A stretch of 6,586 bases of DNA, from assembly GCA_021795255.1 (NCBI GenBank), contig JAJYPQ010000230.1:1-6586 (forward strand). Reading direction: 5' to 3'. The translations under genes and the position numbers were made by a program. The notes beneath the pieces are model-generated. The model was not told the origin of the DNA. It was given only the letters and a program-made list of their open reading frames with translations, and made no database searches. Shown here one piece after another: positions 1 through 6,217 of the stretch; the stretch's first letter is position 1, and the number at the start of each line of letters is the position of its first letter. Source of the DNA: Pseudomonadota bacterium (lineage in GTDB: Bacteria; Pseudomonadota; Gammaproteobacteria; Acidiferrobacterales; Acidiferrobacteraceae).

Positions 1-115
1 CCGGAATCATGCGTAAGGTCAAAATCATAAAAAATACGAGCAAGAAGAACATGACATCGATCATGGGTATGAGCTCGATTCGCCCCTTACGTGTCTCGAA
101 ATAACGCATCTTCAT
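1..115 (-). CDS. exbD: ExbD biopolymer transport protein, N-terminal part (cut by window edge)
   Basis: Only the first 38 codons are in the window. The peptide opens MKMRYFETRKGRIELIP, followed by the membrane segment MIDVMFFLLVFFMILTLRM. This is the ExbD/TolR pattern: a short basic cytoplasmic tail, then one transmembrane helix containing the essential Asp (here D20 in PMIDVMF), which carries protons in the ExbB-ExbD motor. The periplasmic domain that would contact TonB lies outside the window. The ATG at 115 was chosen because it follows the exbB stop by only three bases, so the genes are co-transcribed and probably translationally coupled. A second ATG two codons later (109) is possible. 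The family call follows from the helix motif and from the position directly behind exbB; TolR is the alternative, but the neighbouring receptor favours ExbD. Confidence 0.92.
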   Translation of the reverse strand, partial: MKMRYFETRKGRIELIPMIDVMFFLLVFFMILTLRMIP

Positions 116-118
116 CGC

Positions 119-805
119 TTAATCCAGAAGAGCGGCGGGCATCGGACGGCCCTTAGCGGGCGCATCGGCTTTTGAGGCCGATACGACGGGTGCGCCGTCG
201 AGGCGGTTTAAGAGCATCACCTTCACGATATCCAATTGATGGAGCACGCCGCGAACCTTGTTATTAAGGGCATTGAAGGCCAAAAGCCCGGTCATGGCCA
301 CAAACAAACCGGAGGCGGTGGCCACCAGGGCATCGGCAATACCACCCGTGACGGCAGTGGCTTTGTGGCCCGGGACCGATAAGACCGAAAACGCATGGAA
401 CATGCCGATGATCGTACCAAAGAGGCCCAAGAGCGGCGCCAGGGTGACGATGGTGTCCAGCAGCCACAAGCGCTTATCGAGGGTCGGGGCCAATCTGAGA
501 GTCGCCTCATCGAGGCGATTGGCAAGCTGTTCGCCGCTTGTGATCCCGATATGGGCTATGGCGACATCGAGCAAGACCGCTTCCGGCAGCTCGGGGTGCG
601 AGGCCGCCAGAGCCTTAAGCTGCGCGCGCGAGGCCTCTTGGCACGCACCGAGTCGCTCCACAAGACCATTGCCCTGCAAAAGCGTCCGCCGTAGATACCA
701 GAACCGGTCGATGATAACCGCAAGCGCGACCGTCATGGTCGCAATCATGAGGTACAAGACGCCGTCCGAGTAGTTGGCGAGATGAATCAGGTAATGGATC
801 GTCAT
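119..805 (-). CDS. exbB: ExbB biopolymer transport protein (MotA/TolQ/ExbB family)
   Basis: A 228-aa inner-membrane protein and the scaffold of the proton-driven ExbB-ExbD motor that energises TonB. Three hydrophobic segments are visible at about residues 16-38, 113-139 and 155-181. The last two carry the family core: TLAPLLGLFGTIIGMFHAF, then GGIADALVATASGLFVAMTG, whose small residues and threonines line the ExbD helix path. The long cytoplasmic loop (about 40-112) is typical, as is the short charged C-terminal tail. An upstream in-frame ATG at 847 would add 14 residues, but the ATG at 805 is preceded at five bases by a near-perfect ribosome site (AGGAGGG), and the extra residues would run through the proposed operator. 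exbD follows three bases after the stop. The gene is transcribed divergently from the TonB-dependent receptor, so the unit is probably a dedicated motor for it; tonB is not in the window. Confidence 0.94.
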   Translation of the reverse strand: MTIHYLIHLANYSDGVLYLMIATMTVALAVIIDRFWYLRRTLLQGNGLVERLGACQEASRAQLKALAASHPELPEAVLLDVAIAHIGITSGEQLANRLDEATLRLAPTLDKRLWLLDTIVTLAPLLGLFGTIIGMFHAFSVLSVPGHKATAVTGGIADALVATASGLFVAMTGLLAFNALNNKVRGVLHQLDIVKVMLLNRLDGAPVVSASKADAPAKGRPMPAALLD

Positions 806-817: not shown

Positions 818-841
818 AATTGAGTCGACAGGATGGGCGTC

Positions 842-885
842 GCCCATGACATGCTAATGACACGATAGTGACGATTATGTGACAG
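842..885 (-). promoter_or_regulatory. Tandem Pho-box-like operator (four 11-bp-phased half-sites) upstream of exbB
   Basis: Read on the minus strand, the heptamers CTGTCAC, TCGTCAC, GTGTCAT and ATGTCAT follow one another at exactly 11-bp intervals (starting at 885, 874, 863 and 852). They are separated by the 4-bp spacers ATAA, TATC and TAGC. The known PhoB half-site is CTGTCAT with a 4-bp AT-rich spacer, and these units match it at 5-6 of 7 positions with GTCA kept in all four. Orientation is toward exbB. A -10 element at the canonical 10-bp distance is poor (CATCCT, about 835-830), so the exact exbB promoter is unclear. Another OmpR/PhoB-family regulator with similar repeats is the alternative. 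Confidence 0.7.
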
Positions 886-916: not shown

Positions 917-1010
917 ACCCCGCTCACGTCTTATAAGCACGCGCTTTCGATTCGGCATTCGGCGGCGTCCGGCTTTGCGGGCCCACGCCCACTCGCTGAG
1001 CGAGGCCTTG

Positions 1011-1056
1011 TGAGATTGTTGTCATACCTACGTCATGCCCCCTTTATACAATCTCA
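1011..1056. repeat. Perfect 9-bp inverted repeat around the receptor promoter
   Basis: TGAGATTGT (1011-1019) and ACAATCTCA (1048-1056) are exact reverse complements, 28 bases apart. They enclose the proposed Pho box and overlap the -10 region. The repeat could be a second operator or could form a cruciform or loop over the promoter. Chance cannot be excluded for a single 9-bp pair. Confidence 0.5.
1019..1052 (+). promoter_or_regulatory. Pho-box-type promoter of the TonB-dependent receptor
   Basis: TTGTCAT (1019-1025), a 4-bp spacer ACCT, and ACGTCAT (1030-1036) form an 18-bp direct repeat that resembles the PhoB consensus (6/7 and 5/7 matches to CTGTCAT). A degenerate third unit, TTGTGAG, lies another 11 bp upstream at 1008. 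Exactly 10 bp after the box comes TACAAT (1047-1052), a 5/6 match to the -10 hexamer. No good -35 sits at normal spacing, as expected for PhoB-activated promoters, where the box replaces the -35; E. coli phoA has the same 10-bp distance. Transcription would start near 1059, leaving a leader of about 45 nt before the GTG at 1103. Confidence 0.68.
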
Positions 1057-1102: not shown

Positions 1103-3562
1103 GTGCGCCAGACCAATAACCGATCATTGACGCCCCGCAAAGCCGCGCCGTTACGGCCTACACACATAGCCATCGGCGTCGCGCTTGCATGTGCTCCGGC
1201 GGTCCACGCTCAGACGCTTCATAAGCACAAAAGCAAGAGCTCGAACGCGACCACAATCAATATCGGAGCGGTGTCTGCATCCTCCACGCCGCTCGATACA
1301 TTGACTCACCTGCCCACACGCAAGCAAGTGTTTAAATCGACACAATCGGTGAAACTGATTGGAAAAAGAGAAATGGCCGTGGCCGGGCCCGCTGGCGGCT
1401 CCGCGCAGGCGCTGGCCGTCGCCCCAGGCGTGAATGTCGCGAGCGATGGTTCCACCGGGGCGCCACGATCAGCAATCAGCATCAACGGCATGAAGACCGG
1501 TTGGGGCAATATTGCCGGTAACGCCAATGACGGCACAGTGATGGTGACCTTCGACGGGGTCCCCATGGTCGACCCCGCCTACGAAGTCTGGCAATCATCC
1601 GAGGTGCCGCAGATGTCCCTCATTCGCGGAATCTCTGTAACTTACGGCCCGGGCTATGCCGTCAACCGTTGGTACGACAATATCGGGGGCGCGATCAACT
1701 TCGTTCCGCTGCAACCGGCGAAGAAGGCCAGCGCTACCATCGGGACCTTTGCAGGAAGCTTTGGAACATACGGCGAAAACTTCAATATTCAAACCGGCGA
1801 CATGGGCAACGGCTGGTCTGCGGTTCTCGCCGGCGGAGTCACAAAGGCCAATAGCAACTACCTTCACGGATACGGTTTCAATAACCCCTCAAAGAATCAC
1901 GCCTATTACGCCAAAGTCATAAAGGCGTTTCACGGCGGCCACATAAGTTTTGGTGCTTATGATGCCCGATCAGAATCCTATAGGCCCTTACCCATTCCCA
2001 CCACCCCCAATCCTCTCGTCACGGTAAACGGCGTCAATCCCAATACCGGCGCCGTGAACCCGGGTCCCGAATATAGCCAGCAGACGACCGGGTTTTACAC
2101 AACCCTCCCGTATTCCGAATACTGGAAGCAGAGCATTGTTTCCACCCACATTCTTTATTCACGCTTCGTCAATCGGCTGTCTCGTCATGTCACGGTTCAC
2201 AATTTGTTGTGGTACCGCTACGGGCATCGGGAACACCTCCATTATGACAATTTCGGCTACAACGCCAACGTTCTGGACCAGTATTACAACACGGCTAGCT
2301 CGACATACGGCGACAAAATGGACTTTGATATTAGCCTACCGTTCAATAACGTGTCGGTCGGCGGGTACTGGCTCAATAGCAAGTATTCGTCGTTACTCGA
2401 GTTCTACAATCCGTCCCTACCGGCTCAGTATGCCTACGGTCCTAACGCCGGAAGCAACGCCACGGTCAACGGCCAGTCTGTCAATTACAGCTTGGCGCTG
2501 CCCAGTCATTACCATGACTCTTACCTTTACATGACGGATTTGGCGGCCTTTATTCAGGACGACATCCAGCCGATACGGTCGCTCCGCGTTACTCCCGGTA
2601 TTCGTGTCATCAGTTTCCAGACGAATTTCGTGAATAATGCGCAAACCATGTTTCCCACCAACGTCAACGACCAAATCGGCACGAATGGCGACGGCACGGG
2701 AGGCAACAACCAACCGAACTCATCGACCACTTTTAGCGAGGTCGAGCCTTCGCTCGGCGTGAGCTGGCAAGCATCCAAACAGATCGCCCTGTATGCCAAC
2801 TACGCGACCGCCTACAAGGCGCCGGCCGGGGCCACGGGGACCTACGCTCACCTTCTGGCCTCATCCTTACAACCACAGAAGTCGACACAGTATCAGGTGG
2901 GATTAAAGGGCCTCATTCGCAATAATGGCATTCTGCGCCATTCCGCGTTTGGTATAAATTACTACGACCTGAACGACACGAACGAGATTATTCCAATTCC
3001 CGTCGTGAGCCATCTTTATAGTCTTTTCGCCTCGGGCTCCTCGAAATTCAACGGCGTCAATATGTACTTTGAAGACGCTCCGATTTATACCTTACACGTG
3101 TTCTCCAACATCAGTTTCGAGAAGGCGACCTACACGAGCTATACGACGCCGAGCGGCGGCTCCTATTCCGGTCTGCCCATCTCTAATGTTCCAGCCGAAA
3201 CCGTCAATCTTGGCGCCTACTATAAGATGTATGACGCCGGTGTTCTGTATGCGCCGCGCATATGGTGGCAGTACACGGGCACGCAGAATATATACGACAA
3301 CAATACGAATGCGCCTACAACGCAAAAGCTACCGGCGTTTGGGATTTGGAACGCGTCCTTACGAATGACCGTCTCGCATCGGGACATTTTGGCCGGCTTA
3401 CATCGCGTATCTTTGAACGTCGGTGTCTATAATGTACTCAACAAACATTACAACGCCTACCAATATATAAGCAGCGGTGGATACTATGGCGTAGCGGGTC
3501 AAATGCTGGGTGAGCCTGGTGCCCCACGCTCCATCTACGTGTCTCTGAGCGCGAAGTTTTAA
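1103..3562 (+). CDS. TonB-dependent outer-membrane receptor
   Basis: An 819-aa precursor of a 22-strand beta-barrel transporter that imports a scarce solute using energy from TonB-ExbB-ExbD. The GTG start is preferred because a purine-rich ribosome site precedes it. The protein then opens with a proper signal peptide: basic residues 2-18, hydrophobic HIAIGVALACAP, and an AVHA cleavage site before Q37. The longer open frame back to TTG 887 would bury this signal behind 72 residues. A His/Lys-rich linker (37-47) and a possible TonB box (about 50-58, TTINIGAV) lead into the plug, about 75-203. Plug hallmarks are SISING-like AISINGM, VTFDGVPMVDP, VPQMSLIRGISVTYGPG and NIGGAINFVP. The remainder is aromatic-rich amphipathic barrel, ending in SIYVSLSAKF with the terminal Phe used in outer-membrane insertion. 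The substrate cannot be read from sequence. Divergence from exbBD and the PhoB-like promoter suggest a phosphorus source rather than the usual iron chelate (inference). Confidence 0.92.
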   Translation: MRQTNNRSLTPRKAAPLRPTHIAIGVALACAPAVHAQTLHKHKSKSSNATTINIGAVSASSTPLDTLTHLPTRKQVFKSTQSVKLIGKREMAVAGPAGGSAQALAVAPGVNVASDGSTGAPRSAISINGMKTGWGNIAGNANDGTVMVTFDGVPMVDPAYEVWQSSEVPQMSLIRGISVTYGPGYAVNRWYDNIGGAINFVPLQPAKKASATIGTFAGSFGTYGENFNIQTGDMGNGWSAVLAGGVTKANSNYLHGYGFNNPSKNHAYYAKVIKAFHGGHISFGAYDARSESYRPLPIPTTPNPLVTVNGVNPNTGAVNPGPEYSQQTTGFYTTLPYSEYWKQSIVSTHILYSRFVNRLSRHVTVHNLLWYRYGHREHLHYDNFGYNANVLDQYYNTASSTYGDKMDFDISLPFNNVSVGGYWLNSKYSSLLEFYNPSLPAQYAYGPNAGSNATVNGQSVNYSLALPSHYHDSYLYMTDLAAFIQDDIQPIRSLRVTPGIRVISFQTNFVNNAQTMFPTNVNDQIGTNGDGTGGNNQPNSSTTFSEVEPSLGVSWQASKQIALYANYATAYKAPAGATGTYAHLLASSLQPQKSTQYQVGLKGLIRNNGILRHSAFGINYYDLNDTNEIIPIPVVSHLYSLFASGSSKFNGVNMYFEDAPIYTLHVFSNISFEKATYTSYTTPSGGSYSGLPISNVPAETVNLGAYYKMYDAGVLYAPRIWWQYTGTQNIYDNNTNAPTTQKLPAFGIWNASLRMTVSHRDILAGLHRVSLNVGVYNVLNKHYNAYQYISSGGYYGVAGQMLGEPGAPRSIYVSLSAKF

Positions 3563-3697: not shown

Positions 3698-3771
3698 TTT
3701 CTAAACACGACGACATAAATAATGCAGAATTATGATATCATTGCACCCCTCATTTCTACGGGACAGAGACG

Positions 3772-4255
3772 ATGCGGAAACTGCAGATTGAGGATGCATG
3801 AGGTCATGCGAATAGCGATTCAGCAAGAGATTGGGCGTAGCGAGGAATCGCATTACGATCATCGATTGCATGGATTGCTGCTGGTGGCTGCTGGTCAATC
3901 CTGCCGGGAAGTCGCGGAGCTGTTTGGCGAGAACGGTACGACCGTGCAGCGCTGGGTGCGCCGCTTCGAGCAGGGCGGTCTGGACGCCCTGCGGGAAGGC
4001 GAGCGATCGGGCCGACCGCGGACGCTGGAGGCGAAGGATTGGCGTCGGTTGCAGGGCGATCTGCGCAAGACCCCGCGGGACTTCGGCCTAGCCGCCACGC
4101 TTTGGGATGGCCCGGTCCTGGCGGAACATCTGCGTCGTCGGTACGGGGTCGATCTGGGCGTGCGGCAATGCCAGCGATTGTTCCGGCACATGGGCTTTCG
4201 GCTTCGCAAGCCACGTCCCCAGGTCGCCCAGTCCGATCCGCTGAAAGCCGCGGCA
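3772..4255 (+). pseudogene. IS630-family transposase, 5' half only (frameshifted and truncated)
   Basis: The family-like start MRKLQIEDA reads from ATG 3772, then hits TGA. The next base frame continues EVMRIAIQQEIGRSEESHYD, so one extra base near 3799 (gat gca t gag gtc) has broken the start. From there, residues resemble the N-terminal DNA-binding half of IS630 transposases: a helix-turn-helix (HGLLLVAAGQSCREVAELFG, TTVQRWVRRFEQGGLDALRE), a GRPRTL linker, and the second winged-helix segment ending GFRLRKPRPQVAQSDPLKAAA. Homology stops at about 4255, where a normal transposase of about 340 aa would enter its DDE catalytic domain; instead 13 unrelated codons lead to a stop at 4294. A shortened product from ATG 3794 or 3806 is possible but cannot transpose. 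No terminal inverted repeat could be assigned. Confidence 0.82.
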
Positions 4256-4274
4256 GGTAAAAAAACTTGGCTCC

Positions 4275-4350
4275 TCAGTAAAATTCGTGGGTGAGCTTTG
4301 GCTCCGGAAGCTTGCCGAGTGCATGATATAAAGCCATTTCCAGCAGCTTG
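4275..4350 (-). other. Unidentified C-terminal gene fragment between the two pseudogenes
   Basis: On the minus strand the frame KLLEMALYHALGKLPEPKL, then THEFY and TGA (4277-4275), reads as plausible coding sequence. It uses a different frame from the integrase remnant it abuts and is not part of the transposase. It may be the tail of a third gene trapped when the flanking genes were joined by deletion. I do not recognise the family. It could also be chance. Confidence 0.3.
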
Positions 4351-4725: not shown

Positions 4726-4795
4726 CCTAGTGGAGAAAAAATGGAGCAAATAATCAATCCCGCTCAGGGGATAATTCGTAAGTCTTTGTTTTATA

Positions 4796-4844
4796 TGGTG
4801 GGCCCGGAAGGACTTGAACCTTCGACCAGAGGATTATGACTCCT
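4796..4844 (-). other. 3' fragment of a tRNA-Ile2(CAU)-like gene: integrase attachment site
   Basis: On the minus strand the fragment contains the anticodon loop TCATAA, anticodon 3' stem TCCTC, variable loop TGGTC, a perfect T arm (GAAGG-TTCAAGT-CCTTC), acceptor 3' strand CGGGCCC, A73 and encoded CCA. The D arm and 5' acceptor strand are missing: upstream sequence is unrelated, position 27 mismatches 43, and position 32 is an unusual G. The break therefore lies in the anticodon stem-loop, a usual crossover point for tRNA-targeting integrases. GGTCNNNGGTTCAAGTCC favours Ile2(CAU) over elongator Met. By geometry the element lies to the right, and the intact tRNA should be at its other end. Confidence 0.85.
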
Positions 4845-4866
4845 GATTTATAGGGCCACGGTTCGT

Positions 4867-5008: not shown

Positions 5009-6217
5009 ATGAAGATCACCAAGCGGACAGTCGATAGCACCCTCCTACCAGCCAAAGGCTATGCCCTGCATTGGGATAATGAACTGAAAGGCTTTGGCCT
5101 TCGCGTCACGTCGAGCGGGGTTAAGTCGTTCATTCTGCAAAAGCGTATTCATGGCAAAGATCACCGAATTACCTTGGGGCGCTATGGGGCCGTAACGGTA
5201 GAGCAAGCCCGAAAGGATGCACAGATCAAGGCGGGCCTTATTGCCAGCGGTGGCGATCCGGTAGCAGATAAGAAGCGGGCCGACCTCGCCACTAAGACGC
5301 TGGCCGAAGTCCTGGCCGACTATGGGGAAGCCCGGAACGCAATTACAGACAGCACCCGGAAGGATATGGCCGGGGTACTCAAACGCTACTCTGCGGACTG
5401 GCTCAAGAAGCCTATCAATACGATCACCCCGGATAAGGTGCTTGCCCGGCATAAGCGCATAGGACAAGAGACGCCCGCCAGTGCGAATAAATGGGCTCGT
5501 TATCTGCGGGCCTTACTGAGTTTCGCGGCTGGCCGTTACACCGACACCGAAGGCCATCCCATTCTGACCGACAATGCCGTTAAGGTATTATCCCGCGCCC
5601 GTTCGTGGTACCGCGTGGAGCGTCGGCAGAGTGTGATACAGCCGCACCAGATCGCGGCGTGGTGGGACGCTGTGACCCGGTTACGCAATACCGCCCATAG
5701 GGATTATTTCCTGACCCTGCTACTGACCGGCCTACGCAAAGAGGAAGCCCGGACCCTGCTATGGGCAGACGTGGACTTTCAGGCCCGGACCCTGACTGTT
5801 CATGGCACCAAGAATCACTCAAGCCATACCCTGCCCATAGGGCCGTATCTCGCTCAGTTATTGGACGCCCGCGAACGCTTGGGGGGCACGGTGTTTACCA
5901 GCACCCACGGGCAGATCGGGAACCTTCGTTATAGTCTCGAAAGCATCGCCCGCATAAGCGGCGTCAAGTTTATGGTCCATGACCTCCGGCGGACCTTTGC
6001 CACGGTGGCCGAAAGTCTGGACATACCAGCCTATGCCTTGAAGCGACTCATGAACCACAAGGCCCAAGGCGACGTGACCGGGGGCTATCTCGTCATTACC
6101 ACCGAACGGCTACGGGCTCCCATGGAGAAGATCGAGGATTATGTTTTGAAGGCGGCCGGGGTCCGCGAAAGTGCGGACGTGGTGACCCTTCCCAAGGGAT
6201 ACGGCATTGCCGTATAA
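5009..6217 (+). CDS. Tyrosine-recombinase integrase, P4/Arm-DNA-binding type
   Basis: An intact 402-aa integrase that inserts and excises its element at the neighbouring tRNA site. Residues 1-90 form the arm DNA-binding domain of this type (YALHWDNELKGFGLRVTSSG, then KSFILQKRI and ITLGRYGAVTVEQARKDAQ). Residues about 93-195 form the SAM-like core-binding domain, and about 205-382 the catalytic domain. The catalytic set is complete: R243 (TGLRKEEAR), K268 (HGTKNHSSHTLPI), H324 and R327 (VHDLRRTFAT), H350 (LMNHK) and nucleophile Y360 (GGYLV). Length is normal for the family. The ATG at 5009 has AAAGGCGG about five bases upstream. The gene starts 165 bases from the attachment site and reads into the element. 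Its stop overlaps the old toxin start (TAATG), so the two were probably translationally coupled. Nothing suggests it is inactive. Confidence 0.95.
   Translation: MKITKRTVDSTLLPAKGYALHWDNELKGFGLRVTSSGVKSFILQKRIHGKDHRITLGRYGAVTVEQARKDAQIKAGLIASGGDPVADKKRADLATKTLAEVLADYGEARNAITDSTRKDMAGVLKRYSADWLKKPINTITPDKVLARHKRIGQETPASANKWARYLRALLSFAAGRYTDTEGHPILTDNAVKVLSRARSWYRVERRQSVIQPHQIAAWWDAVTRLRNTAHRDYFLTLLLTGLRKEEARTLLWADVDFQARTLTVHGTKNHSSHTLPIGPYLAQLLDARERLGGTVFTSTHGQIGNLRYSLESIARISGVKFMVHDLRRTFATVAESLDIPAYALKRLMNHKAQGDVTGGYLVITTERLRAPMEKIEDYVLKAAGVRESADVVTLPKGYGIAV

Follow-up and report, generated by a model that had tools for sequence, protein, structure and literature searches.

The 297 bp that separate the divergent exbB and TonB-dependent receptor genes (positions 806-1102 of the window, the whole 6,586-nucleotide stretch of DNA that was analysed) probably hold two divergent PhoB-activated promoters, and the TonB receptor/ExbBD locus they would control is likely used for phosphorus acquisition. 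We give this reading a probability of about 0.78. The receptor is probably switched on at low phosphate, because its promoter has the same layout as that of the phosphate-transport genes of relatives. The sequences themselves show the anatomy of the region, its likeness to the pstS boxes of the lineage, the link of the pattern with phosphate genes across genomes, its retention in some relatives, and PhoB and PstS in related genomes; PhoB binding, the start site, the phosphate response, the nature of the substrate and the presence of PhoB in the genome of the window are inferred. A Pho box is a pair of 7-nt direct repeats with 4 nt between them (PMC4415409, in the available text), and the elements of the locus are the following.

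1..118, minus strand: N-terminal part of exbD, running past the window edge (family match)
119..805, minus strand: exbB, 228 aa, complete (open reading frame and family match)
830..835, minus strand: CATCCT, putative weak -10 of exbB, 10 bp past the array
846..885, minus strand: array of four half-sites at 11-bp spacing (two Pho boxes), facing exbB
1008..1014, plus strand: degenerate half-site TTGTGAG, the most upstream, in 11-bp register with the next two; GTGTCAG in the related locus L002
1019..1036, plus strand: Pho box TTGTCAT-ACCT-ACGTCAT (TTGTCAT 1019-1025, ACCT 1026-1029, ACGTCAT 1030-1036)
1037..1046, plus strand: spacer GCCCCCTTTA, exactly 10 bp, between the Pho box and TACAAT
1047..1052, plus strand: -10 hexamer TACAAT, identical in the related loci L001 and L002
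1059, plus strand: predicted transcription start, about 7 nt past the -10, the exact base being taken from general promoter knowledge
1103..3562, plus strand: TonB-dependent receptor, 819 aa, GTG start (ATG at this spot in L001)

The receptor contains both plug and beta-barrel domains (PF07715 and PF00593, above cut-off) and is 92% identical to the closest database protein; among the 120 matches listed of 159, the named relatives include Acidiferrobacter, Acidithiobacillus, Acidihalobacter, Acidiphilium and Metallibacterium. Thirty-eight related loci were compared with the window locus, and the divergent exbB/receptor layout is common to L001 (93%), L002 (90%) and L012 (67%). Directly past the receptor lies an IS630-family transposase fragment (3722-4294, 95.6 bits for a cut-off of 100), followed by a tyrosine integrase (5009-6217). 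Window positions 4791-4843 correspond to the 3' part of the tRNA-Met gene of L001 (8965-9041), which sits there between the receptor and an rpoD-like gene, named by reading its start. As the integrase is found at the tRNA-Met site, unlike in L001, an integrative element seems to have inserted into the tRNA gene.

The preliminary description had placed the motif TTGTCAT-ACCT-ACGTCAT, 10 bp and then TACAAT in front of the receptor, and all its positions were right; that it opened the feature at 1008 is explained by the third in-register half-site, TTGTGAG. The receptor-side array has three half-sites in 11-bp register, the Pho box being the downstream pair, and by inspection this box fits the pattern TGTCAY-N5-YGTCAY-N10-TANNNT. 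The absence of a conventional -35, also claimed there, was confirmed: a search of 780-1200 for a sigma-70 -35/-10 pair gave none (shuffle mean 0.3), and an ordinary sigma-70 promoter was rejected on that ground. A riboswitch leader was discarded as well, since Rfam at E up to 1 gives none near the promoter, just a weak tRNA-like match at 4799-4857. In the predicted leader, CGCTTTTTACA (1063-1073) is identical in the window, L001 and L002.

On the exbB side the array reads, on the minus strand from 885 down to 846, CTGTCAC-ATAA-TCGTCAC-TATC-GTGTCAT-TAGC-ATGTCAT. Its final half-site TGTCAT, with (C/G)ATCCT 10 bp further on, is kept in all four aligned sequences (window, L001, L002, L012), and the hexamer CATCCT is a poor -10. 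The proposal that the two arrays are independent of each other holds insofar as they are 122 bp apart, oppositely oriented, and each followed by a conserved hexamer 10 bp on.

A matrix for scoring these sites was derived from relatives: the Pho boxes in front of pstS were collected across the family that includes G001, the genome to which L001 belongs. Of the eighteen genomes searched, 17 carry a complete pstS gene and the other, G007, a fragment only (L080). For each gene the box taken was the one closest to the Pho-box consensus, and spacing was not part of the choice. In all 17 readable family pstS genes, the best box within 350 bp upstream is followed by 10 bp and TA...T. Because the genomes are related, these 17 promoters are not independent; 13 distinct boxes occur among them, and these make up the matrix. 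Twenty-one pstS genes were scored, the 17 of the family and four from Acidithiobacillus, L071 (G010) and the fragment L080 being left out; three of the four Acidithiobacillus genes have the box, 10 bp and TA...T, and L082 has no box directly before the gene. The receptor promoter has the layout of the 17 family pstS promoters, and to this extent the earlier proposal of a classical PhoB-activated promoter appears sound.

Of the 13,138 positions scored in the window, the seven best are 868 minus (16.2), 846 minus (15.5), 1008 plus (13.0), 846 plus (11.7), 6545 plus (10.9), 1019 plus (10.3) and 857 minus (8.6), and six of these seven fall in the intergenic region. With 8.6 to 16.2, the Pho sites of the window stay under the 20.0 to 26.7 of the training boxes; one reason is that a matrix favours its own training set. 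The receptor Pho box, at 10.3, may be a weaker site than those of pstS. When 806-1102 was shuffled 5000 times with dinucleotides preserved, the forward maximum was reached seven times, the reverse maximum once, and both together never, in agreement with the earlier view that two opposite Pho-box clusters are unlikely to arise by chance. In two of the 5000 shuffles a forward box scored 10.2 or more and had TA...T 10 bp further on. In control loci carrying other response-regulator genes (L050-L068, 132,288 positions), two positions reach at least 10.2, and neither has TA...T at that distance.

The strict pattern TGTCAY-N5-YGTCAY-N10-TANNNT was then counted in the 18 family genomes, with the reversed pattern as control. 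There were 32 matches, versus one for the control. The genes behind them are 13 pstS, eight OprD-type porins (two named by Pfam, the other six by sequence likeness), six MFS transporters, two receptor orthologues and three others. For the two MFS proteins tested, the best NCBIfam model is a phosphate:H+ symporter, with 298 and 342 bits versus a cut-off of 610, and the remaining four of the six were named by likeness. The pattern thus marks mostly phosphate transport genes, which speaks for the PhoB-type layout proposed at the outset. The second half-site of the window, CGTCAT, is present in five of the six MFS promoters, and so is a regular half-site variant in this lineage. In G001, the three pattern sites belong to pstS, a porin and the receptor orthologue; in G002, the receptor orthologue has one of four. 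Three of the 32 matches have no phosphate gene behind them: two are in a region with NUDIX-like frames, joined in L164 by an isocitrate-dehydrogenase-like one, and the third is upstream of a small exported protein, all named by reading translations. In G014 (L172) and G016 (L164) the box is perfect and has TA...T 10 bp on, but no phosphate gene was seen to follow; in L164 the isocitrate-dehydrogenase-like frame opens about 450 bp past the box.

Half-sites 2 and 3 together with the -10 agree between the window and L002 at 19 of 20 positions, and the two spacers at 6 of 14 (Fisher p 0.0012, the pieces having been chosen after the box had been seen). Identity over longer segments is 74/117 (891-1007), 32/45 (1008-1052), 40/50 (1053-1102) and 35/45 (846-890). 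Since 32/45 is lower than the 40/50 of the leader, the box region is not the most conserved overall, and the contrast lies inside it. The receptor-side site is kept in L001, L002 and L012.

The preliminary description had suggested looking for the same box upstream of orthologous receptors, and here the outcome is divided. The family has 12 receptor orthologues of at least 69% identity, 11 of them readable (L087, in G017, comes without upstream sequence and was left unscored). Directly upstream, a box with TA...T at 10 bp is found for three, in G001, G002 and G007 (8.9, 14.6 and 14.8), and is missing for eight, whose best score is at most 4.0. In at least six of these eight (G004, G005, G006, G008, G013 and G018), the receptor comes after a PhoB-like regulator gene, and a degraded site stands before that gene instead: CGTCAT, 10 bp and TACACT, with a degraded first half-site and scores of -1.6 to 9.5 in a scoring that gave a bonus to candidates with TA...T. 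In G012 TAATTT stands in place of TACACT in front of the regulator gene, and in G003 the corresponding sequence is masked. Boxes are found for part of the paralogous receptors (39-45% identical), and the hexamer 10 bp on can differ there, AAGAAT being one example. In the Acidithiobacillus relatives, arrays precede the regulator, the receptor, or a receptor paralogue, as in L035, where CTGTCATGTGATTGTCAT and further repeats are followed by 10 bp and TATCAT. Arrays with TA...T at 10 bp are also found in L031 (5508-5536) and L028 (2837), about 380-540 bp before the receptor, a gap with space for a small gene or a long leader.

PhoB is found above the family cut-off in 11 of the 12 related genomes searched, and the one encoded in G001 matches the effector domain of E. 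coli PhoB whose structure was determined on pho-box DNA (1gxp, 147 bits; search for solved relatives, E 1e-15). The genome of the window presumably encodes PhoB too. Phosphorylated PhoB would bind both sets of tandem 11-bp repeats, the forward one at 1008-1036 and the reverse one at 846-885. The bound protein would substitute for a -35 element and bring sigma-70 RNA polymerase to TACAAT on the receptor side; recruitment at CATCCT, on the exbB side, would be weaker. Phosphate scarcity would in this way lead to the TonB-dependent receptor and its ExbB/ExbD(/TonB) energiser being made together. A role in phosphorus acquisition is most likely for the receptor, whose substrate would be phosphorus-containing or phosphate-liberating; no solved structure related to it by sequence was found at E 0.001. 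The related clusters L014 and L022 encode MFS proteins whose best model is a phosphate:H+ symporter (320 and 305 bits, cut-off 610), and L014 and L030 have phosphoesterase-family genes. Together with the promoter evidence, these symporter-like proteins and phosphoesterases point to phosphorus rather than iron.

The main rival to this reading concerns the protein that reads the repeats. Instead of PhoB, or beside it, the reader could be the OmpR/PhoB-type regulator with a degenerate receiver that is linked to the locus in relatives, and that would work without phosphorylation or on another signal. Going by L001, its gene would lie some 1.4-2.2 kb past the left end of the window. Its gene accompanies the receptor in many relatives, occurs in 12 of the 18 family genomes, and in L001 (2717-3547) is on the same strand as exbB-exbD-tonB. 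The protein has a Trans_reg_C effector domain resembling that of PhoB, and its N-terminal domain is modelled with moderate confidence (mean pLDDT 73) as a (beta-alpha)5 pseudo-receiver fold of the response-regulator kind, even if TM-scores over the whole chain are low, at about 0.3. The regulator lacks the acidic pair, Thr and Lys found in the PhoB receiver; members of the L001 group retain the Asp, which others have lost. The best NCBIfam model is PhoB for the L037 regulator (99 bits versus a cut-off of 296), and RppA for that of L001 (34 bits), with PhoB second (28). CGTCAT/C, 10 bp and TACACT occur upstream of 10 of the 13 family regulator genes examined. However, a search at E 1e-10 gave no regulator in G002 or G007, both of which have the receptor box. 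That absence favours PhoB as the reader, though both genomes are drafts and the contig of L002 stops within exbB. The recognition helix of the regulator is, moreover, unlike that of PhoB at several positions, while the window boxes match pstS boxes, and the regulator gene of L001 has no box before it (best 2.9). We regard the linked regulator as an unlikely reader, though one to be taken seriously. Such PhoB-like regulators with degenerate receivers are linked to these receptors in several acidophiles, and a relative in G009 adjoins a second pstS. A combination of the two readers can be imagined, rather speculatively and with low odds: a two-tier switch on a TonB-energised phosphorus importer in iron-rich acid, where phosphate is bound up with ferric iron. 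PhoB would act at pstS-like boxes, and the receptor-linked, degenerate-receiver PhoB paralogue would read the CGTCAT-type variant, uncoupled from PhoR and perhaps weighing iron against phosphate.

Control by PhoB also has to be set against two readings that we hold to be far less probable. An iron-siderophore receptor under iron (Fur) control would agree with the distant resemblance of the receptor to siderophore receptor models and with the treatment of related clusters as Fe(III) uptake in the available text of PMC2631029. The resemblance is far below cut-offs, and the TonB-dependent siderophore receptor class was rejected (TIGR01783, 78.4 bits versus 223.5). The intergenic sites, for their part, match pstS boxes and not Fur: the best match in 806-1102 to the 19-bp sequence that we take to be the Fur consensus is 11/19, equalled in 166 of 500 shuffles, no better than chance, and Fur regulation was rejected. 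This makes iron control very improbable. Least probable of all is that chance or mere inheritance accounts for the repeats, which would then have no function. Two observations would be in keeping with such an origin: L001 is close enough for the spacers to be conserved as well, and in L002 the leader is better conserved than the box region. Against it stand the shuffles, none of which matched both strands, the 32-to-1 excess of the genome-wide pattern, and the better retention in L002 of half-sites and -10 than of spacers.

Acidophile TonB receptors have been annotated as iron-siderophore receptors (PMC2631029 and PMC2621215, in the text available for each). The FecA3/FecA9 clusters of Acidithiobacillus and Leptospirillum, with ExbBD-TonB, a phosphatase and a PhoB-like regulator, are described in PMC2631029, which put forward an iron-phosphate circuit in 2008; gene order suggests that FecA3 belongs to the receptor family of the window. 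A. ferrooxidans has two pst clusters and PhoR/PhoB (PMC2621215). The term "Pho box" has no occurrence in the available main text of PMC2631029, nor in that of PMC2621215. A search of the available literature combining Acidithiobacillus and Pho box found no paper, and nothing on phosphate control of receptors was found in the available text of one paper that mentions both Acidiferrobacter and TonB-dependent proteins. At low pH, iron is plentiful. Pho boxes that have the pstS geometry of the lineage, on both the receptor and the exbB side of the locus, suggest that the scarce nutrient is phosphorus. They also lend the circuit proposed in 2008 support at the DNA level, and open it to tests in cultures of Acidiferrobacter or Acidithiobacillus.

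The receptor promoter is probably a further, well-supported example of an already known PhoB-type switch. In E. coli phoA, 10 bp separate the Pho box from the -10, and the phoA/pstS-type PhoB promoters of this bacterium share with the window two repeats 4 nt apart and a -10 with no -35. The window differs from them by its second half-site, ACGTCAT and not CTGTCAT, by its third, degenerate half-site, and by the gene it drives, a TonB receptor. The FecA3/FecA9 clusters are of the same kind as that of the window, although in the available text of PMC2631029 their receptors are read as iron transporters. The Caulobacter PhoB regulon likewise includes TonB receptors, thought to import alternative phosphate donors (PMC11208175, in the available text); Caulobacter belongs to another bacterial group, and in the window the ExbB/ExbD energiser is divergent from the receptor, under a box array of its own.
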